A stretch of DNA of 64,000 nt from Astropecten irregularis (Eukaryota > Echinodermata > Asteroidea > Paxillosida > Astropectinidae), in contig OZ020248.1 in the NCBI GenBank assembly GCA_963971285.1, positions 6,634,001 through 6,698,000 of the forward strand, read 5' to 3'. Of the stretch, positions 6,201 to 59,583 are shown piece after piece. Made by a program: the position numbers and the translations under genes. The notes under the pieces were generated by a model. The model worked only from the letters and a program-made list of their open reading frames with translations, did not search any database and was not told the origin of the DNA. Position 1 is the stretch's first letter; each line of letters opens with the position of its first letter.

Positions 6201-9200
6201 TTTTGCTTACGGCTAGCATATTTCACGGGAGAGTTTCCTTGTTTGGTAACAGTAAGCAAGGGATTTCTGCAGAATGCATATCAGCGCGTTGACAGAAAAC
6301 AATCATGGTTAGCTTTGAAATTCTTCGCTAACTGAAGGTCTTGCTTCCGGATTCCATGAAATAGACTTCATGCGTGGCAGTGCCTGTAAGCACAAAAATA
6401 GGCCGTAACGGAATCCATGAAATTGGGCCCAGATATAGTTCTGCAAGCAATTTGAAATCAGGCTTACGTGTACCAGCTGTAGACATAATCTTTCAGAATC
6501 AGCTCAAACAACTGTAAAGAAACAGAGAAGAAAATAAAGGAGATCAAAAAATGGAAATAGTTTGTGAAATCGGTGAGGTGCAATTGCAAAAATATTTTAA
6601 GTGTGATGAGCGATATTAAACCTCACCAGAAGAGCCCGGCTAGTAAGTGGTAAAATGCCTGCACCACAAAGCAAGGCATCACAGGTTGGCACTCGGGCCA
6701 CATATAGACTTTTTTTAAAAGCATTTGAAGAGTGCTTCAGGAAACTTGAGGAAAGGGTAAAATTATAGCTACATGTACTGATGCGGGGGTCAGTTTCACC
6801 AAACTCATTGTAACTTACTATGAATCGTAGGACTTATGACACATTGAAGCCCTACGTAGGATACGATAGGTTATCCCTTGTATTTTGAGTTACGATCGAT
6901 CGTAGGGCTTCGAGAAATCAACCAGTCACAAAATTTAGGTGAATCTGCAATCGAGTTGCTCATTGAGAACAAGAGAAGCACAGGGATAGACCAATCCATT
7001 AAGCGCCTCCCCATTTGTTTGGAATTGTTTCTGACTAATCACAGCCGTGGCTTAAGTCCAACACGTGTTCATTAAAGTCTGACAAGTTGTACATTCACGT
7101 ATGGAGCACATGACTGGAACAAGCAGTATGACATTGGAGAGGAACATGAAGAAGGCGTGATCATTGCCCCTATGTGCAGTGGGAGGGGCTTAGTGGATCG
7201 GTCTATTGAAATGAAAGACAGCACCTCATGTGTGTACGTTAAGGAGAGGATTGTAGACCTACCTCAGACAGAGCGATATCAACCCGCTGGGGTATCAGGA
7301 CATCATTCCAAGGCTGGACTTTGTTCAAGGTCAGATCCGGCCTAAAATATTGGAATTTATAGATAAAACAGAAATATGAAAAAGATGAAATCAATGATCT
7401 TCTGTTAACCTTGTAGACAACTTGGATAGTTGTATTGTAATTGTGAACCAGCTGCACAATTTGCACAAAATAGGTAGAAATTTGAGTATAAATAAACAAA
7501 TTAGCAAATTTGCGAAAGATTAAGCTCTGAAGCATAATATAGGTTATTCATTGCCTGTCAAGCTTATGCACGTTTCTACGTTCCTCCATGGTTACGCATA
7601 CGACACCAGCACTGACCGTACTGACTACACTGTTGTTATAATTAGTTTGATCAATGATCACTGCACATTGAGTGTGCACAGAGGCATATTGTTTACCAGA
7701 TACACGTGTGAACATCGTGTGTAATCGATATGCTTGACGTCTAATCCAAGCTGATGACGTCACATGAATAACCTCTATAGGCCTTCTTGACTCTGACCAA
7801 TGTACATGTACACCTGTATTACAGGTCACTGTTTCAGTTGACAAGTAGGCCCACTGGTAGTCTACAAGTACTGGTACTCGTCTTGAAAATTACCCCATTG
7901 AAGAAAAGAACAAAGACAAATTTACTGGAGTGGGATTCGAACCGGTACGGTATTCTGGAGATCGCTGGTTCGAATCCCGCTCCAGTAAATTTTTCTTTGT
8001 TCACTTCAATCACTTGTCAATTCTGACTTAAAATTCAGTCCGTTCCCCTTGTGGTTATTTGGTGAAAAATTACCACAGATGTGAGTCTGCTATTGGAAAC
8101 TATTACCCAAACATGGAACAAGACATCATACCTATGCCTGTTGCAGTTAGCATCGCCGCATACCGAGCAGACGGCGGGTGATGCTTCCCTGAGCCTGTCC
8201 TGTGGCTTGGCTCTCTCGTACATTATCAGGAGGTTTGGGAGGACCGAGACGTGACTGAAGAGGATGTAGAAGGAAGCCATTCCACCAAGGAAGAACCATG
8301 GTATGGCCAGGATGGCAACATGGCTGCAAATCAAAGGGATGATGGCAGTCGAAGGCAGTTAGATTTATTGCTATTTGAGGAAACTATTCTGATGAAAGAG
8401 TTCCACTGACAGCCTTCTTTCTTTATGTTATTTTACCGTAGGTACGTTCCTGCCGGCATGGCAGAATGCAAATTGGTCAATCGGAGTAAGGATAGTAATC
8501 AGAGCAAAATAGTATTTGTAGGAAGAATGCCGGTGCCAGCAAAATATACCCTACATTGATTTTAAGAAAAACATTGAACTTTGAAGGTAGGAAACAAACA
8601 AACAAAATGAAAATGTTTTTATTAATTTTAGACTTGGACCTAGGCCTATAAATTATCTATGCATGGGGTGAACACATGGTACTTTAAACGGGGATTGTAG
8701 CTTTACGGGTCCTAAAACTATAAAGGAAAGGAAACTTCTTTTTGAAAAGTAACTTACCTACATATACTTTGTTGGTCTTCTCCTCTATATTACCAAGGTT
8801 AATTTTTTGGAAAGAGGGCAGGGCTTTGATTTTTGAGGGAAATTATGGGGTAAAAACGGTAACCAAGATTGTAACATTTCACCGCTGCACGGACGGCCGC
8901 ACACGAGAATAGTCTGGTTTCCACTCTGACATTTTGAGGACTCTTGATATGTTGGGTCTGGGCACTTGACTAACCAGACCAGACAAAATGGCCTCACGCG
9001 ATCAGACGGCCTGTTTTAAAGTTTACAAGAAGCGCGTAAGAAAATTGAATTTTAACCCTGAAATGTTTAACAAATTTCTTCAATCTAGGCTTTTAAGGAC
9101 CCAGGAACATTTGCTGGAAGTCAAAAGTATCATTTTTGAGGAGTAGAAGTTAGTTCAGAGCCAAAAAAATCAATGTGTTTTGGGATCCCGTCAACCCACA

Positions 9201-9560
9201 ATCGCCCTTTAAACTTAGGGAATTACAAGAAACAATATCTGGACGTAAACATCTTTACCAAGATAACCTGATAACCGCCCCTGTTCTGTGTGGCTAGTGT
9301 GCTCCGCCCCTTTTTCTGTCCACTGGCACTGCAGTTCTCTGAGTTCAACAACCATATCGATTGAAGCCAAGCATTCGACATACAAAATGAATAATTCCCC
9401 CAAACTGACAGCCCCGGTGCCCAAGCCGACAGGTCACTTACTTGTAGAAGACAACGGTCAGCAATATCAAGCAACCAACTGCCGCTGAAAAGTGTCGGTT
9501 TGCGGCCATTTGGTCGCGCAAACGACCGACCTCTTCACTGATCACCTGCAAGGCGGCCAT
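284..9560 (-). CDS. SNX14: Sorting nexin 14, N-terminal half (14 exons, continues past base 1)
   Basis: SNX14 is an ER/endosome-associated protein with an N-terminal membrane anchor followed by PXA, RGS-like, PX and nexin-C domains, linked in animals to lipid handling at organelle contacts. Exons in transcript order: 9560-9442, 8323-8132, 7341-7263, 6511-6468, 5979-5816, 5274-5118, 4567-4492, 4186-4142, 3868-3785, 3209-3095, 2215-2060, 1515-1458, 1337-1271, 339-284. All introns are GT-AG and all phases agree, giving 470 codons plus 2 nt. Two hydrophobic segments lie at about residues 25-39 and 42-63, then VLPNLL and a Cys-rich CSVCGDANCNRHR, which matches the family signature. PXA follows (RRVREVDLPTFIVDKL, ASGSVFLLAMDVIADP), then the RGS-like part (DGALNILQFCLTVEDFN, ENVFCPLFHHSDE). 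The start at 9560 gives an N-terminus of family-like length; Met18 is an alternative. The last exon (339-284) is short and its family match is weaker. PX and nexin-C are outside the window. Confidence 0.93.
391..1160. repeat. 11-bp minisatellite inside a SNX14 intron
   Basis: About 70 tandem copies of an 11-bp unit, GTGAGGTTTCA on the plus strand, fill most of the intron between SNX14 exons 1337-1271 and 339-284. The left part is nearly uniform, apart from a short run of GTGAGGTTTCT. The right part mixes variants (CGGTGAGG, CAATGAGG, CATTGAGG, CAGTGGGG) in a recurring order of about four units, which suggests a higher-order repeat. The array decays into degenerate copies up to about 1,215. 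Confidence 0.95.
1826..1975 (-). mobile_element. tRNA-like SINE copy (SNX14 intron)
   Basis: Read on the minus strand, this has the tRNA-like head (box A-like CTCAGTTGGTAAGAAT, then a degenerate box B) followed by the family tail TCACTTTTCAATGACTTACA and an AACTGA-rich stretch. The same tail recurs at least ten times in the window. It is diverged. Confidence 0.7.
2668..2894. mobile_element. Inverted-repeat element, CCTTTTCCAAACC family
   Basis: The ends are inverted: GGGCCTTTTCCAAACCCCGG at the left and GAGGTTTGGAAAAGACTTCTGG at the right. The interior carries GGCTCCGGCTCCATTTCG-type sequence facing its reverse complement. Other copies lie at 16,207-16,401, 32,098-32,325 and 34,130-34,365. 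There are no coding signs, so this is a non-autonomous (MITE-like) family. It abuts the next element directly. Confidence 0.75.
2893..3047. mobile_element. Inverted-repeat element, CCTACGATCGATCGTAACT family
   Basis: The left end reads TTTCACGAAGCCCTGCGATTG and the right end GTTACAATGAGTTTGGTGAAA, with sub-terminal complementarity. Other copies lie at 6,786-6,922, 31,118-31,243, 31,268-31,425, 36,243-36,387 and 47,099-47,250, in both orientations. It is a short non-coding element. Confidence 0.75.
3303..3720. mobile_element. Decayed TTAA-family element plus a LINE/SINE-like 3' tail
   Basis: From 3,303 the sequence follows the window-wide family marked by CTTCACAGAT, ATAACTTACAG, GGTAGAAACATAC and TTTATCCAGAAA, and includes the GATCAAAACTC hairpin half. 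From about 3,577 to 3,700 it changes to a second repeat (AGGGAGTTGAGAT...GCGCTATACAAATAC) that also occurs at 46,580-46,800. The GCGCTATACAAATAC end resembles the 3' tails of CR1/L2-type retroelements. Confidence 0.55.
4893..5032. mobile_element. Inverted-repeat element, TTTCACGAAACACTAAGATT family
   Basis: The left end CAATTTCACGAAACACTAAG faces the right end GTGCTTTGTGAAATCTGCCC. The interior contains TGTGATGTCACACTTTGCTT. A second, rearranged copy lies at about 17,400-17,575 in a HELQ intron. This copy is in the SNX14 intron between the exons ending at 5118 and starting at 4567. Confidence 0.6.
5400..5790. repeat. Degenerate AAGTTGAACTTGAGTTG-type repeat tract
   Basis: This SNX14 intron stretch is dominated by loosely repeated motifs such as GAACTCAGGTTGAG, AAGTTGATTC, GAGCTGGA and TTGACTTGGAACTGAGC with no fixed period. 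It looks like an old, decayed tandem array. Confidence 0.45.
6139..6430. mobile_element. Inverted-repeat element, GCCCAATTTCATGGAATC family
   Basis: The left end GGCCCAATTTCATGGAATCT is complementary to the right end GGAATCCATGAAATTGGGCC. Inside, CCGTTAGCAAAAATTCTTTGC and the later AATTCTTCGCTAAC form sub-terminal inverted repeats. A full copy lies at 56,520-56,825, with fragments at 40,725-40,818 and about 22,440-22,605. Confidence 0.8.
6786..6922. mobile_element. Inverted-repeat element, CCTACGATCGATCGTAACT family (reverse copy)
   Basis: The left end CAGTTTCACCAAACTCATTG matches the right end of the 2,893-3,047 copy in reverse. The right end carries GTTACGATCGATCGTAGGGC. It lies in the SNX14 intron between exons 7341-7263 and 6511-6468. 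Confidence 0.75.
7905..8065. mobile_element. Head-to-head tRNA-like SINE remnants (SNX14 intron 2)
   Basis: Two box-B-like halves face each other: TTTACTGGAGTGGGATTCGA at about 7,920 and its near reverse complement TCGAATCCCGCTCCAGTAAA at about 7,970. They form a hairpin of roughly 70 nt. The SINE tail TTTTTCTTTGTTCACTT and the CTTAAAATTCAGTC block follow. Confidence 0.7.
8324..9441. other. SNX14 intron 1, nothing else recognised
   Basis: Between the first and second SNX14 exons I see no coding exon, no RNA gene and no member of the repeated families. It is bounded by a GTAAGT donor and a TTTGCAG acceptor on the minus strand. Confidence 0.6.
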
Positions 9561-9584
9561 CGTATTGGCGATTGTGTTGTTTTC

Positions 9585-10021
9585 GGTAGCATATGTTGGT
9601 GCAACGCTGGGCCGAGTATTGAATACGCATCACGTACTACGTCCGTATCCGTATCCGGATCCGACCCCAAATCCGCACCACTGATATTGCGCGCCGGCGC
9701 CTCTCTATACATTACTGTATGTACAATCGCCTGTATACTGTTTGTACAATGTACATGTACTGTACATGTACTGTTCACAGTGTATTCTGTGCCGCACATG
9801 CACCCGAGTTATTCTCGGCTGCATGTGCGGCACAGAATACACCGTGAACAGTGCATGTACAGTACATGTACATTGTACATACAGTATACAGGCGATTGTA
9901 CATACAGTAATGCGCCCAATATCAGTGGTGCGGATTCGGGGTCGGATCCGGATACGGATACGGACGTAGTACATGATGCGTATTCAGTACTCGGCCCAGC
10001 GTTGCACCAACATATGCTACC
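9585..10021. mobile_element. Giant foldback transposon with 9-bp target duplication (Mutator-like)
   Basis: The element begins GGTAGCATATGTTGGTGCAA and ends with the exact complement, TTGCACCAACATATGCTACC. The left arm (9,585-9,808) and right arm (9,814-10,021) are almost perfectly complementary around a 5-nt loop, TTATT. The left arm carries about 16 extra bases (GCGCGCCGGCGCC region). Both flanks carry GTTGTTTTC (9,576-9,584 and 10,022-10,030), a 9-bp target duplication. Very long inverted repeats with a 9-bp duplication fit non-autonomous Mutator-like or Foldback elements; this class call is inference. It contains no gene. It lies 24 bp upstream of the SNX14 start codon, between SNX14 and HELQ, so it may sit in the SNX14 leader or promoter. 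Confidence 0.93.
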
Positions 10022-11203
10022 GTTGTTTTCGTGAGAAGAAATCGTCGGGTACCCACTCGACAGCAACGTTACATAACTACACGAAAGAAGAAGGGAACCG
10101 TGCGGAACCGAAGTAAAATCAGGCGCCAGTCTAATTCGATATTATAAGTAGCAGGAAACTGTTGTCTGGTACCAGCATCATTATTTTGTATACATGCTTG
10201 TGCGCCAATCTTTGAAAGATTTGTAATTCACTAATTTGAGGAACACTAAAAAAATTTATTTGTAAATTGTACTGTAGGCCAACAGATCGATATTTATATC
10301 TCGCGTACATCTACCAGAAATGCAGAACTTTATTGCTGTTCTCACGAGTTGTCAATCAGGCATCTCTGCAGGCGCAGGCTAATCTACAGTCAGTAGGGGC
10401 CTAACGTTAATTTAGTTACTGACTAATCAGTCTAATGAGGCTTGTAAACATGATTTGTTGTGTTGTGTGGATTTCTTCCTCCGTGGTATTTGCAGCGAGT
10501 CCCAGTCTGACGATGGTGAGATTGTTTCCTCATTATTGATGGAGGAAGGGAGGATTACATGTACTGATGCATGCAACACATTACACGGTAGGCGTCGCAC
10601 ACAAGTTGTCCTGTTTGTGAATTAGGCCTATTCTATTTATTATTCAAATGTGAACAAAGAAAACTCGAATGGAGCGGGATTCGAAGCAGCGACCTCTGGA
10701 ATACCGTACCGCACGAAAAGTGAACAAAAGTGCTGTTCATGCGGCCACATGACCAGCACTTTTGTTCACTTTTCAATGACTTTAAAATTCAGTCAGTTTC
10801 CAATTGTGGTTATTTGATGATTATATCCTCTTTGAGTGATCCCCCATGTACTGTTCCCAGGTTGCAGCATTGCTGCGACTGCAAGTATCAATGGAATGAT
10901 CCTTGGAATATAGCTGTATGTGCGTGGTTTCACTGCTTCTGAATGCCAAACGAACAACTTTGACACCACCAATACATGTATTAGGCTGGGGTAGCTTAGT
11001 TGTCATGTTGTTATTGCAGTTATTAGTGCACCGACACAGTATTCCGGAGGTCACTGGTTCGAACCCAGTCAATTTTTATTTGTTCACTTTTCAGTGTCTT
11101 AAAATTCAGTCAGTTTCCTAAATGGTTATGTAATGGATCACTTATGTCTCATGTTTATTTGTATATTGCTTGTTTCTTTAGCCTTTTCAGGATATCATTT
11201 GAC
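10022..11203. promoter_or_regulatory. Shared upstream region of SNX14 and HELQ
   Basis: The two genes diverge from here, so this stretch plus the foldback element should hold both promoters. I see no convincing TATA box. HELQ needs a 5' non-coding exon: a good acceptor (CTTTAGCCTTTTCAG, ending at 11,190) lies just before its ATG. Its donor partner was not identified; CAGTCTGACGATGGTGAGAT near 10,505-10,525 is one weak candidate. SINE copies occupy about 10,645-11,135, leaving about 600 bp of unique sequence next to the foldback element. Confidence 0.5.
10645..11135 (+). mobile_element. Two tRNA-like SINE copies upstream of HELQ
   Basis: The first part (10,645-10,820) is a rearranged copy in which a reverse head meets a forward tail, giving an inverted pair around AGTGCTGTTCATGCGGCC. 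The second (10,826-11,135) is the most complete copy in the window. It runs from the leading block CCCAGGTTGCAGCATTGCTG through the tRNA-like head (GGTAGCTTAGTTG, GGTTCGAACCC) to the tail TTTGTTCACTTTTCAGTG and TTAAAATTCAGTCAG. Confidence 0.75.
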
Positions 11204-14200
11204 ATGGAAGAAGTTCGAGGTTCAACATCTGGACCTCAGCGACGGGTAGCAAGAAGGAAAAGAAGTCTCACAAACCAAACAACAATTGCATCAGTTGCAG
11301 CCAAGAAACCGAAGGAAGAAAACACCCAGCTCTGTAATGGAACGGTCCGCAATCCCAGTCCAGCAGGCAGTGTGAATTTGGCTGGGTCTCATCCATTACA
11401 CATCCAAGGGGTGTTTGCATCTGATGAATCGGATGGACACCAAAAAGACGGCCATTCAAATAGGCAAGATGTGAAGACTTGCAGGACCTCTGCAAAATCG
11501 TGCAGCCAGTCCGGAATTGGAGAAATACAGCACAAGAAGCCTCTGTTTCAGAAGAAGTCTTCCTCGCAGAGTACAGGCTGCAGGAGTGGTATCATACTCT
11601 TGTCAAAGTCACAAGGTGATGGGTGCAAGGGAAGCCGAGGCAGGACCAGGGGTGCCCTCTTGGAGCCAGCCAGTCCAGTAATCTGGCCGGTAGAAGACAA
11701 CGATGATGAGTACTGGATGTTAGGGGCCGAAGTCGACTCACAGAAAACCAGTTCATGTTCAAGTCCACTAGGCCATCAGGCAAGTATGACGGCTAGCATT
11801 GCCCACGATCTTGTTGAAGTGTGAAGTCGTGGAAGTGTGTTGTCCATATTATGGGAAAATTTCCTTGGATGGATGACTTTGATACATAAGTTCTCTTTTT
11901 TTCACCCAACCATTCCAATTCCATCCCGCCCAAAAAGTACGCTAACAAGATTCTACTGGTTTTAGCCAGGATTTAAGGATCCTACATGTATTTGTCCAAT
12001 GTTGGCTTATAAAACGGGAAACAAAATGCCTTGAGGTATACGTTTGGGCAATTCCAGCATAACGGACATGACACTAAGTGGCATTTGGTGTCATGTCCGT
12101 TACGGTCACAAGAAGTGCATTTTCTCTACAACTGTTCAATAAAATTACATAAAATTTACTACATATGTCACTGATAGTTAAATGTGTCTGATAAGCCTAA
12201 TTAAAATTGTTTGCAAACTGCCAATCCTACTTTATGATCCTCTGAATAAGGCAAAAACTGTATAATTGTCATGTCCGTTACGCTGGAATTGCCCATTTAC
12301 TTAAATGTACCCTTTTTTTAATAACTGAAATAAGTGATAATGCACTGATTTCATTGATTTAGTTTTAAATTTCAAAAGTTTAGGATATGAAACAACCTGT
12401 CGTGGACCTATTTTGATGTCGCTCTCTCTCTGTTAATTCTCTAAAGTGTCTGTTATGATGTCATTGTACGTTTACAGCAGAAGGCTGAGTGTGAGACATC
12501 ACCAAGCTGCAGTCCACTTCCTCCTACCCCGCAAGGGCCAAGGCTCAAGAACACAAAGCTCTTGGCATCGGCCAGACTGCATGAGCCACCGTGCACCACC
12601 TCGGAAACATCGCCAGCTCAGAACAGCTCATTCAGTGAGTGGGACAAAGAGGACTCCTTCTACAGCAGACTGGACATCGAGAAGCTCATAGCAGATTCTG
12701 AGCATGTTAAGGATGTCGACACTGGTGCCGTTGTCTTGTCTGGTGGCAGAAGTGTCGCAGATGGATCCCTTGAAGAAGCCTCAAGAGAGGAAAATGTGAA
12801 ATGCAGTGTAACGAGGAATCCGGTTCTAACAAGCAGTGTCATGCGTGCACCAGAGCCACTGCCAGGAGACTTTCTGAAACAACCGGTGCAATCACAACAT
12901 TGCAATACTACTTCTGACACTCCTAATCCTGAAAAGTGGTTCAGCTACATCGAAAACCTAAAAGGAAGCATTCCAAAGAAAAATCCGGCTTCCTTGTTAG
13001 AGCCTAGAGCTGATTCCAATCTGAAGAAGTCCAGAGGAAGGTCTCCCAATAACGATGTGTCTTCCACCTGCTCGAACACGGAGGCACCTCCCTGCCAAAT
13101 CGACAGTTTATTTCTTGAAAAATCAACACATCCATTGATGTCGACCCCTAAGGTCACCTCGGCTGGTAGTAGACTGCGGCAGAGGTTGCTTGGCAATGCC
13201 CGAGTGAAGACGACCCCTCAGCAGTCACGGCTGTCCGAGCTACGACAGGCCAAAGTCCAGGAGGCCGCGACCGAACTGTTGCAAGAAACAAGCGCCGTCC
13301 CAGATAATGACATTGGTCCATTTTACGGCCTGCCAAGCCGAGTGGCCGGACTGTTGAAGTCCAACAGAGGAATAGATAAACTGTACGGTAAGATAATCGG
13401 CAACATCTCATACCTATTTTCACTGTGACTGTATTAAAATTCTCGTGGTCATTGGCAGCGTTTTAGCTAAGATTTGAAAAGTGGTACTAGTACAAAATGT
13501 GCGCAGTGCAAAGTCCCTTACGGTGGGGGTCCCATAAAGCGGGCCCTGGAAGCTTTGGCAATTTTAGACACCCTCTGGTGGTCTCTGGTGCATTTCTGAT
13601 ACCTGTTTTTCCAGGAGTGAGTTATTTGAATGGTGACTCATCAGTGATTGATTATCATAGGAAAAGTCACATTTAATACTGATTTATTAAGTGACTTTTA
13701 AAGAATATTCCCTTCTGTACGTGTAAGCCAAATAGATTCAATCTGATCATTTGGCTCTCTTCTGGGAGTGTTGTCCAATCTCTCTCTGTTTGGTACCAGT
13801 CAGAGGCCAGAAACCATAAAACTGATATTAAAATTGGCAGGGTGTCTCTTTACAGTTTTGCCAAATTTGAGATGATTTGATTTTTTTTTTTTCCTTCTCC
13901 CATACAGACTGGCAGCATGCTTGCCTGACCCTTCCTGCTATCCGAGAAGGCCGCAATCTCATCTATTCACTGCCAACCAGCGGAGGCAAGACCCTGGTTG
14001 CCGAGATCCTCATCATGAGGCAGTTGCTATGCAACAGGAAAGATGCCTTGCTCATCCTGCCTTTCGTCTCCATTGTTCAGGAGAAGGTATACACTGAATT
14101 TCTCCTGAATACGGCCGGTGCATATTGGCCGAAACGTCAAGTTAACCGGCTCATTTCAGAGCCAACCCAAAATCACAAAAGAGACAAATATATATGTCAC

Positions 14201-20200: not shown

Positions 20201-22239
20201 AGAGTAATTTATCAGTATGAGGGTGTGTTATAAAACAACTCCCAATTGTACATATGTAAGTCAAAAAGACATTGATAGCATTATATTGCCCTCACGAAAA
20301 TCACAAGGCTTTCAAGTTAAGTGCCTAGGGTGCTTTTGAGGAATCCTTGGTGTCATTACCAGAAATAGATAATAATTGTTCCAAATTGCTAGTTATCTTT
20401 GATCATATTCTTCTCTGTTTTTCTAAGGTGGATGAAGCAGCTGATTTTAGAGTTCGTCGTTTCTACCTGACCCTCATGCTATGGAGCATCTTGAACCAGA
20501 CTGGAGTCTGGGACGTAGCCGCCAAGTTTGAAATTCCCAGGGGATTTGTCCAGAACCTCTTGACGTCGGCAGCGAGCTTCGGTTCCAGCGTGCAACGTTT
20601 CTGTGAGGCGAGTAGCATTAATAAAATCAAGACTCTAAGTATCTGAGAAAATCCCAAATGAGCATTCCTTATTTCTGTTTAATATGTCTTTTACTCAAAA
20701 ATTAAGTATCAAGTTAAAGATCATTTATTGGCACTCCGGAAGTTTTGTAATGGTACGTCTTCCTGCATTCTAGCCATAGGTATTCATGAAATCTCCTCCA
20801 TACTTGTTTATTCATTGGCATCATTGTTTAGCTATCAAAAAATGAACAACTGGTCTAGCTCATTAAACTTGTCGTGCTTGAGAGCACACACCCATCCAGT
20901 CTGCAGAATCATAGCCGTTGACTTTTGACAATGGCGGACTGATAGTGCTGAATGTAGAATAATGGAAAGTAGGACCCAGCTACTGGATCTCATACCCCCC
21001 AGGTCTGAGGACGTGTCTACGCTACTGGTATGAAGTTACCTTTAACTTGTTCAGATCATAGATGAGTTTTCCTCTGTCACTTTCTGTTTAGGATCTGCCT
21101 GAGTTCTGGGCCTACCAGCAACTACTGACCAAAGTGGTACACGATCTGACCTTCTGCTCAACGGCTGACCTGGTATCCCTGCTGGAAGTACCCGGGGTCA
21201 AACAGGTCAGTGACAAGATCAAGAGTTTTTTTTAAGAAACAGGAAATCTGTGAATTTGAACTCTGCATCCAGTAAATCACGGTATTAAAGCGGGAAGCCG
21301 AGAGAAACAAGACTGCGGTGGCTGCTTCGTTTTAGGTTTAAATTCTTGGTTTAACGTTCAAATTTGTTTTAATTTCCATTCAGGTTCCTCTCCTCTCTGT
21401 CTTCCTGAATTGTTTTATTCATACAAATGTTGAAAATTTAATGAACAAGAATTCTTACGATATTTCTTGTTTCATAACATCATACCTTTGTTTGCTTCAG
21501 GGAAGGGCTAAGCAACTTGTGCGAGCGGGCTACAAGACACTTCGTCATCTTGCCCATGCCGACCCCAGCCAACTGACCAAGGAGGTTGAGCACCTGCCCA
21601 AGAAAACTGCCCAGCAGATTGTGGCCGCTGCCAAGGTTTGTGAACCGGAAAAAAAAAAATACAAATGAACATATGTAATTGAGTATTAGGGACACCACCA
21701 ACGTAGGGCTGGATGGCTCAGTAGGTAGAGCGCCTGTACAGTATTCAGGAGGTCGCCAGTTCGAATCCCGCCCCAGTAAATTTTTCTTTGTTCACTTTTC
21801 AAAAATACACATCGATCAAATTAATATAGCGGTTACATGGCTTTGAATGAACAAAGACAATTGACAATTAGGAACACCACCAACATAGGGCTAGGTAGCT
21901 CAGCTGGTAAGAATGCCGGTACGGTATTCCGGAGGTCGCTGGTTCAAATTCCACTCCAGTCAATTTGTCTTTATTCAATTTTCAATGACTTAAAATTCAA
22001 TCAATTTCCTTTGTGGTTATTTGGTGATTTAATACAGTAATATCTTGACAATTTGTGGGATCTTCTCGTAGATGGAGCTTGCTGAGAGGGCAGAAGCATT
22101 GAGGGAAGAAGCCGAGGAACTGGTCACCAAACCCTCCACCGACCAAAATCCGATAATCACGACAGAAACTGGAAACAAGAATCCCTCGATAACGACCACC
22201 ACCACGGATATGGTGACCTCTACTGAGCAGCCAGGCTAG
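11204..22239 (+). CDS. HELQ: Helicase HELQ (POLQ-like DNA repair helicase), 17 exons
   Basis: HELQ is a nuclear superfamily 2, 3'-5' DNA helicase acting with RAD51 paralogs in crosslink and replication-fork repair. Exons: 11204-11779, 12481-13387, 13908-14086, 14378-14578, 14940-15110, 15227-15334, 15788-15933, 16590-16841, 17217-17358, 17640-17744, 18734-18953, 19470-19630, 20093-20191, 20428-20607, 21092-21205, 21501-21635, 22072-22239 (stop TAG). The joined frame is about 1,287 codons, longer than the human protein of about 1,100. Residues 1 to about 470 are Ser/Lys-rich, weakly conserved and probably disordered. Then come GPFYGLPS, the DWQHACL motif, Walker A PTSGGKT (about 517-523), DELH (620-623), SAT (654-656), [14 protein letters not shown] and [12 protein letters not shown] (about 867-878). 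The winged-helix/ratchet region and the C-terminal [14 protein letters not shown] helix-hairpin-helix follow. Donors after exons 4 and 14 are GC; the donor after exon 1 (GCAAGT at 11780) is the least certain junction. Exon 2 may start at 12478. Confidence 0.95.
11780..12480. other. HELQ intron 1 with an inverted-repeat element
   Basis: The intron begins with the proposed GC donor and ends TTTACAGCAG. At about 12,047-12,295 it holds an element whose ends are GGGCAATTCCAGCATAACGG and CCGTTACGCTGGAATTGCCC. The left half has an extra internal inverted pair (CGGACATGACAC facing GTGTCATGTCCG). I found no other copy of this element in the window. Confidence 0.7.
13388..13907. other. HELQ intron 2, nothing else recognised
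   Basis: This 520-bp intron runs from GTAAGATAAT to a long T-rich tract and CATACAG. I see no repeat family member or RNA gene in it. Confidence 0.6.
15335..15787. other. HELQ intron 6, nothing else recognised
   Basis: This 453-bp intron runs from GTGAGTAG to GCCGTTCCAG. I recognise no repeat family or RNA gene in it. Confidence 0.6.
16207..16401. mobile_element. Inverted-repeat element, CCTTTTCCAAACC family (HELQ intron 7)
   Basis: The left end GGGCCTTTTCCAAATCTCCG faces the right end GAGGTTTGGAAAAGGCCCC. The interior GGCTCCATTTCGTGAATCCA is shared with the 2,668 copy. It lies between exons 7 and 8. Confidence 0.75.
16880..17120. mobile_element. tRNA-like SINE remnants (HELQ intron 8)
   Basis: A forward leading block (CTCAGGTTGTAGCATTGCTA, TCCTTGGGATATAGCGGTAT) is followed by a reverse-oriented head (ATTGACTGGAGCGGGATTCA, GAGTTATCCAGCCCTA). 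Two partial copies are fused. Confidence 0.65.
17400..17575. mobile_element. TTTCACGAAACACTAAGATT-family copy (HELQ intron 9)
   Basis: It contains two facing versions of the TGTGACATCACACTTTGCTTAGC / TAAGCAAAGATTGATGTCACA motif, plus the terminal TTTCACGAAACACTAAGATT. It matches the element at 4,893-5,032 with an internal rearrangement. Confidence 0.55.
17745..18733. other. HELQ intron 10 with transposon fragments
   Basis: This 989-bp intron holds a GGGGGGATAG-rich segment at about 17,930-17,965. At about 18,170-18,222 it holds the end of a GGGCCAATTTCAT-family element (CTTAGCAAATTTTTGTGCTA ... GAAATTGGCCCC). At about 18,263-18,340 a short inverted stretch repeats AGGGAGACA / TGTCTCC. The rest is unassigned. 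Confidence 0.55.
18992..19352. mobile_element. TTAA-flanked inverted-repeat element (HELQ intron 11)
   Basis: It starts TTAAAGGTACTATCATACTT and ends AAGTATGATACTACCTTTAA. The terminal inverted repeats are about 20 bp and bounded by TTAA on both sides, as expected for TTAA-targeting (piggyBac-type) non-autonomous elements. The interior has the family landmarks ATAACTTACAGGGTATAAAG and GGTAGAAACAT. Many related copies follow downstream of HELQ. Confidence 0.8.
19631..20092. other. HELQ intron 12 with G-run
   Basis: The intron contains a run of about 15 G at 19,861-19,876, followed by GCACGTGCCCCAAGCGCC. This resembles the end sequence seen at 47,580-47,605 and may be a remnant of the same kind of element. 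Nothing else was recognised. Confidence 0.45.
20608..21091. other. HELQ intron 14 (GC donor), nothing else recognised
   Basis: The intron opens with GCGAGTAG after the codon for Glu and closes with TTCTGTTTAG. No GT donor near the exon end keeps the conserved FCE-DLPEFW reading frame. No repeat family member was recognised inside. Confidence 0.7.
21690..22035 (+). mobile_element. Two tandem tRNA-like SINE copies (HELQ intron 16)
   Basis: Copy one (about 21,690-21,805) has the best preserved tRNA-like head in the window: GGATGGCTCAGTAGGTAGAG, then GGTCGCCAGTTCGAATCCCG. Copy two (about 21,850-22,035) repeats the head (GGTAGCTCAGCTGGTAAGAA, GCTGGTTCAAATTCC) and carries the full tail (TTTATTCAATTTTCAATGAC, AATTTCCTTTGTGGTTATTT). 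The sequence folds partly like a tRNA but lacks a normal anticodon loop, so it is not a functional tRNA gene. Confidence 0.8.
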
Positions 22240-53489: not shown

Positions 53490-53790
53490 ATTAAAAAGTG
53501 AACAAAGAAAAATTGACTGGAGCGAGATTCGAACCGGCGACCTCCTGAATACCGTACAGGCGCTCTACCAACTGAGCCATCCAGCTCTACATTGGTGGTG
53601 ACCCCAATAGTCAATTATCTTTGTTCGTTTGGCAGTCAGAAGCCATGAAACCACTCACACACCGCCATACACCAAGGATCGTTTCAATGATACACCTAGC
53701 AATGCTGCAACCTGGGAACGGTACATGGTGGATCACTCAAAGCGGATACGGCTTTTTAATTAATATAATCAGTTTCCCTTGTGGTTATTT
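53490..53790 (-). mobile_element. Full-length tRNA-like SINE (reverse), well preserved
   Basis: On the minus strand, the leading block (GAGTGATCCACCATGTACCG region) is followed by GGATGGCTCAGTTGGTAGAG, then GGTCGCCGGTTCGAATCTCG and the tail TTTTTCTTTGTTCACTTTTT. The head pairs into most of a cloverleaf. The anticodon-loop position 33 is C rather than T and the T-arm is weak, so it is a SINE head and not a tRNA gene. Confidence 0.8.
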
Positions 53791-59154: not shown

Positions 59155-59583
59155 CGGTGGTAGACATCACACTTTGGCCTTGTTGATACGACAAGTCTTC
59201 ATTAGCTTATAACTGTACACCGACTTTCTTTACACATTGTAGGTATACTGGTGCCATGTAATAACAACATCGCTTGGTTTTTATTCGTCCTGACTGCCAC
59301 CTCTGCTTCATACCTCAGTCTTCATATTAAACTTCCTTTCCTATCATTCCTGATTAATTCTGCTTCTAATTCGGTGGTAGACATCACACTTTGGCCTTGT
59401 TGATACGACAAGTCTTCATTAGCTTATAACTGTACACCGACTTTCTTTACACATTGTAGGTATACTGGTGCCATGTAATAACAACATCGCTTGGTTTTTA
59501 TTCGTCCTGACTGCCACCTCTGCTTCATACCTCAGTCTTCATATTAAACTTCCTTTCCTATCATTCCTGATTAATTCTGCTTC
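59155..59583. repeat. Exact tandem duplication, 217-bp period
   Basis: The segment starting CGGTGGTAGACATCACACTT occurs at 59,155 and again at 59,372. I find the two copies identical over about 212 bp, up to CTGATTAATTCTGCTTC. There is no coding content. Identity implies a very recent event or an assembly artefact. Confidence 0.95.

Follow-up and report, generated by a model that had tools for sequence, protein, structure and literature searches.

The palindrome and its surroundings

The window, the whole stretch of 64,000 nucleotides that was analysed, contains at 9585-10021 a 437-bp near-perfect palindrome, the ends of which read GGTAGCATATG...CATATGCTACC. The element and the possible minus-strand exon adjacent to it comprise the following features, in window coordinates:

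9441..9560, minus strand: candidate initial coding exon (40 codons, with a possible GT donor after it) in an inferred gene model
9576..9584, plus strand: left copy of the 9-bp target site duplication, GTTGTTTTC (sequence reading, window scan)
9585..9808, plus strand: left arm, 224 bp, starting GGTAGCATATGTTGGTGCAACGCTGGGCC (arm alignment)
9809..9813, no strand: loop TTATT, matching bases 1-5 of array unit 1 (82 bp) in longer relatives
9814..9821, plus strand: putative deletion junction CTCGGCTG, where unit 1 of the left-side array meets the right arm, which reads CTCGGGTG in relatives, through an imperfect match of 8 bp
9814..10021, minus strand: right arm, 208 bp (arm alignment)
10022..10030, plus strand: right copy of the target site duplication, GTTGTTTTC (sequence reading, window scan)

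Sequence and fold bear out the initial annotation, which described two long arms (224 and 208 bp) in almost perfect complementarity, separated by a 5-nt loop and flanked by an exact 9-bp duplication. As single-stranded DNA the element folds at -251.5 kcal/mol, compared with -64.9 (sd 4.0) for 100 shuffles (z -46.9), none of which folds as well. The outer 20 bp had been called exact complements; the complementarity is indeed exact, but extends to 34 bp. Aligned over 208 positions, the arms show 8 substitutions and one 16-nt gap between them, and a second alignment gives 4.3% divergence. The right arm is without approximately 16 nt that the left arm retains, and the stretch CTATACATTACTG, which adjoins this gap, is found in 33 of 55 other arms. 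The base after GTTGTTTTC is G on both sides, and the direct repeat can be read as 10 bp; the 9-bp reading is preferred because it alone leaves symmetrical ends. When the window was scanned for exact 9-bp flanks (containing at least three letters) with 60-4000 bp between them and 12-bp inverted ends (up to two mismatches), the palindrome was the sole element returned. No further copy of it is present in the window, where only matches of 13-21 bp occur, outside the element or in its own low-complexity part.

A start codon had also been placed beside the element. The minus strand does have an ATG (9560-9558) at a distance of 24 bp from the element, but the coding exon to which this codon would belong (9441..9560) is only plausible and has no Pfam match. 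Naming the gene as sorting-nexin-like was considered and rejected, a motif script having given it no support. A long hairpin at so short a distance from a start codon could influence such a gene through its structure or through double-stranded RNA. On the plus strand, four of the seven pieces scanned between 12.4 and 21.7 kb have matches over the cut-offs to DEAD, helicase C, POLQ helical and helix-hairpin-helix families, and resemble a presumed HELQ/POLQ-type helicase gene; the surroundings of the element thus look like those of an animal genome.

Dispersed copies and their target site duplications

Searched against its own 475.7-Mb genome assembly, the element gives at least 106 matches (40 of 142 candidates scored), and 34 of the matched places were taken with their flanks for detailed comparison (the fetched loci). 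The family end is conserved (GGTAGCATATGTTGG...) and the arms measure about 220 bp. A terminal 29-bp pattern, allowing up to three mismatches, occurs at 93 termini genome-wide (44 forward, 49 reverse), while the reversed control yields none. These counts are lower bounds and divide into at least 83 termini of the main type, including the two of the window, and at least 10 of a sister type, all reading GGTAACATATGTTGGTGCGACGCTCGGCC. The main-type termini form 29 neighbouring inward-facing pairs and leave 25 unpaired ends. Twenty-five pairs span 255-2824 bp and four span 17.1-22.8 kb; one pair (contig C8) is an inner pairing, with an outer arm that yields an exact duplication, and three (two on C11, one on C28) enter as positions with unread sequence. 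The window copy, which had been called giant, is the third smallest of the 29 paired copies.

The sister repeat has ten identical termini, at C10:22731106 of the assembly (G000) and at nine other places. In the one sister copy that was read (L046), the terminal 58-60 bp match the family at 90%, after which the sequence diverges and the rest of the arm is unrelated.

The search for further copies with 9-bp duplications, which the initial annotation had proposed, is answered by these 83 or more termini and by the two-armed copies, of which 18 out of 23 (the window copy included) are flanked by an exact 9-bp duplication. Exchanging flanks between copies as a control gives one exact 9-bp match in 462, in keeping with L029 and L036 being segmental duplicates. 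The five inexact cases comprise L012 and L020 (8/9), L022 (7/9), L015 (5/9) and L036 (a 1-bp shift); the count excludes two pairings of 4/9, namely the inner one of L013 and that of L041, the ends of which do not coincide with the terminus. Five more copies add three exact duplications (in the 17.1-kb, 18.2-kb and 255-bp copies), one of 8/9 (22.8 kb) and one of 7/9 (19.4 kb). By eye, the 18 exact target sites share no sequence beyond some T-richness. The length of 9 bp lies within the 8-11-bp range of Mutator-like elements (MULEs).

The copies are thus dispersed and bear target site duplications, as expected of foldback elements, and the longer ones have long inverted repeats that include tandem units, which the window copy does not carry. 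We consider the feature to be a non-autonomous foldback (long inverted repeat) DNA transposon, with a probability of about 0.9.

Array anatomy, a probable internal deletion and movement

The longer relatives consist of an arm, an 82-bp tandem array, an inverted array and an arm, without a coding middle. The switch between the inverted arrays is visible in 25 of the 34 fetched copies, with 0-32 bp separating them; in the remaining nine, N runs or an insert interrupt the copy, the copy is truncated, or the array is gone. The initial annotation held that few such elements keep an almost loop-free palindrome, a view that these 25 copies call for revising. Additionally, L018, L020 and L041 hold 0.8-1.9 kb of other sequence, in which no transposase relics were recognised by eye in the ORF lists. 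The arm-array border, ...GCACCCGAG followed by TTATTCTCGGCTGAGACG, was recounted in 55 arms from 33 of the 34 fetched loci, being exact in 32, present in looser form in 41 and absent from 14.

Comparison of this border with the centre of the window copy explains the loop. The window centre reads ...GCACCCGAGTTATTCTCGGCTG and then continues with right-arm CATGTGCGGC, where the right arm of relatives reads CTCGGGTGCATGTGCGGC; the left arm runs on into 13 nt of array unit 1, and the right arm follows directly. The loop therefore corresponds to the array start, the arrays having been lost between CTCGGCTG and CTCGGGTG. This junction occurs in no other fetched locus than its own place (L001, L002). 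Judged from its sequence, the window copy looks like an internal deletion derivative joined at an imperfect 8-bp match, and the earlier description of it as intact does not hold. Two other array-free palindromes (347 and 255 bp) are each flanked by an exact duplication and differ from the window copy in their centres, that of the 347-bp copy lying near the self-complementary motif TGTACATGTAC; they look like the products of separate deletion events. The window copy would represent a clear case of a foldback shrinking to a bare hairpin, in which one deletion at a short imperfect match creates a loop-free palindrome, and the 347- and 255-bp palindromes show the same outcome with other centres.

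A hairpin could also arise as an assembly artefact, by the joining of reads across an inverted repeat. Palindromes are hard to assemble, as had been remarked initially, and in the 34 fetched loci seven of ten runs of 200 Ns, taken as assembly gaps although N can also stand for withheld sequence, fall within element spans (40.2 kb) as against three in 216.3 kb of flank, a count favoured by the drawing of gap-broken spans to include the gap. An assembly fold is nevertheless extremely improbable, given that 8 substitutions and a 16-nt gap separate the window arms, that the flanks carry an exact 9-bp duplication, and that the 347- and 255-bp palindromes have exact duplications of their own and different centres.

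The near-perfect symmetry would equally suit an inverted duplication made in place, in which hairpin or template-switch synthesis would have produced one arm from the other. In 13 elements (30 arms of 57 listed, chosen for near full length), however, mean arm divergence is 3.5% within elements and 3.5% between them, which indicates that the arms of one copy are not kept alike by mutual copying. Each window arm is nearer to an arm of L018 (1.4% and 2.9%) than to its partner (4.3%), and the central bases are array-unit sequence. Such an origin is accordingly highly improbable, and the non-autonomous foldback transposon remains the preferred reading.

The mobility claimed for the element applies to the family, but a recent move of the window copy, with arms about 4% apart, does not follow. 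Three pairs of fetched copies have common centres (L011/L012, 99.5% over 199 bp; L025/L029, 94% over 200 bp; L009/L019, 86% over 200 bp), L011 and L012 also having identical right arms. No similarity was found in the 1-kb flanks of these pairs, and their duplications also differ. Common centres in unrelated flanks with different duplications show, at the level of sequence comparison, that other transposase-less palindromic copies of the family moved as units, although the centres of L009 and L019, only 86% identical, count against this reading. Palindromes that bear arrays but no transposase thus still move. Since the centre of the window copy is common to no other fetched copy, movement of this palindrome as such is unsupported. 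Its recent insertion is likewise unsupported, because at about 4% divergence a 9-bp duplication should remain free of changes in more than half of cases, by our own arithmetic.

A transposase supplied in trans would recognise the ends, perhaps through the outer 58 bp, the stretch common to the sister repeat, and would cut with a 9-bp stagger before pasting the element. The internal deletion would have run from the first left array unit to the inner end of the right arm, at the imperfect 8-bp match, by interrupted gap repair or by replication slippage across the hairpin, and may have occurred during the move of the window copy or later in place.

Affiliation of the family and inserts in its arrays

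The window element and its family belong to a known kind of transposon. The systems compared here are taken as described in excerpts of the papers cited. Tm1, a Mutator/Foldback family of root-knot nematodes, resembles the present family in its composite inverted repeats, which contain tandem units, in duplications that are mostly of 9 bp, in MITE-like forms and in arms that average 93% identity within an element, whereas its units measure 13-15 bp, as against 82 bp here, and a putative transposase copy is known, none having been found here (PMC3169594). Muta1 of Aedes aegypti shares the 8-9-bp duplications, the subterminal tandem repeats and non-autonomous derivatives with truncated repeats, but is autonomous and active in a yeast assay, has 12-bp repeats, and most of its derivatives contain varied internal sequence (PMC5225508). 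Tetris of Drosophila virilis is a foldback with long tandem units (about 220 bp) inside the inverted repeats and 8-10-bp duplications, for which the excerpts report no autonomous copy; unlike the present family, in which the inverted arrays mostly abut, it has a middle domain between the inverted repeats (PMC4079207). Rehavkus, a group listed from arthropods and annelids, also has 9-bp duplications and a minisatellite near an end, but the minisatellite precedes the 3' repeat only and the transposase carries a PHD finger, whereas no coding copy was found here (PMC6446971). Among the papers listed on foldbacks of echinoderms and sea urchins and on foldbacks generally, none describes this family, judging by titles and opening lines of abstracts; of the papers listed for the letters of the terminal sequence, none concerns transposons by title.

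No copy with a transposase is obvious by eye among the ORFs of at least 130 aa in the 34 fetched loci, some of these ORFs having been scanned against Pfam. The MULE domain PF10551, the sole Pfam family searched genome-wide, occurs at 33 places (59 of 59 candidates scored), and the shortest distance between such a place and any of the 93 termini is 176 kb. A set of non-autonomous elements need not include a MULE transposase. The duplication length and the anatomy argue for a Mutator affiliation, and the transposase of the family is probably of Mutator type. The initial assignment to Mutator-like/Foldback elements stands for the foldback structure and the 9-bp duplications, while Mutator membership is only probable, no MULE domain found lying near a terminus. 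An unlikely but appreciable alternative is another superfamily, P/Galileo-like or undescribed, with 9-bp duplications and foldback arms as well: the distance of every PF10551 place from the termini would agree with it, and foldback-like arms are also present in Galileo, of the P superfamily, in the excerpt consulted (PMC3573991). Against it, 9-bp duplications fit the 8-11 bp given for MULEs (PMC6446971) and the Mutator/foldback families Tm1 (PMC3169594) and Muta1 (PMC5225508), in the excerpts of these sources.

The arrays of three of the 34 fetched copies (L017, L039 and L037), which are three of the four long ones, contain inserts of two kinds. Polinton/Maverick termini begin with AGT, and elements of this type encode a protein-primed type B DNA polymerase. 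All three inserts start with AGTAGTAT at an array junction, at three different positions of the 82-bp unit, one end of each being seen (borders: L017 up to 3535, L039 from 4809, L037 up to 2966), and they look like elements of the Polinton/Maverick type. L043 is listed alongside these three as holding a Polinton-like insert with a AGTAGTAT end inside a foldback array. The outer 9-bp duplications of the insert-bearing elements are exact in two cases and 7/9 in one. Over 3.9 kb, a length that takes in the array part, L017 and L039 are 97% alike, and their kind of insert encodes a protein with a weak TFIIB-type zinc-ribbon match, under the cut-off; the parts of these inserts that were examined contain no polymerase match. 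The L037 insert has a polymerase ORF (PF03175, E 0.017; PF02945, E 6e-4; both under the curated cut-off), and near-identical copies of it elsewhere (L044, L045) share their end point to within a base and have non-foldback flanks. The other scanned insert ORFs match no family of weight, three insert ORFs have no match of weight in PHROGs, and the 419-aa and polymerase ORFs have no meaningful match among solved structures (best E 0.44 and 0.26). Scans with the 419-aa, polymerase and 222-aa ORFs returned no relatives in viral contigs.

A reading of the virus-like genes of L017, L039 and L037 as cargo of an autonomous foldback was rejected, because the genes lie in elements that have ends of their own and sit at three array positions, and because L044 and L045 have neither array nor arm in the 2.6 kb examined. 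An insert of the same kind was also considered for the 22.8-kb pair (contig C19) and rejected, since the 600 bp read inside one end consist of array and inverted array, with no AGTAGTAT end. Five copies of the polymerase (C1:32275068, C1:35171134, C11:16188973, C9:28485720 and C12:19359912 of G000) are 99-100% identical over 728-742 residues of the 742-aa query, with long open frames, and the polymerase-bearing element family seems to have spread recently. It is possible, if rather doubtful, that the foldback arrays are landing sites for Polinton-like elements. By rough arithmetic of our own, about 50 copies with about 0.7 kb of array each make up 35 kb of the 475.7 Mb, so that as many as a thousand insertions placed at random should strike the arrays less than once. 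If the arrays are landing sites, palindromic DNA or its chromatin would attract the integrase.

The window contains several other repeats. The segment 8690-9206 (517 bp), 99.8% identical to part of L046 (contig C10), is a young repeat in a presumed intron beside the palindrome. A second inverted-repeat element, at about 12047-12297 and with ends GGGCAATTCCAGC...GCTGGAATTGCCC, lies upstream of or within the presumed helicase gene. An 11-bp unit, GTTTCAGTGAG, forms a 73-copy array at 393-1199, and a 217-bp unit is present as a two-copy tandem duplication with 100% matches at 59155-59583. Finally, tRNA-like (SINE-like) repeats are dispersed on both strands (7942-8006, 21707-21779, 53490-53586 and others), of which ARAGORN passes two as tRNA-Thr and Rfam three as tRNA, one of them at threshold.
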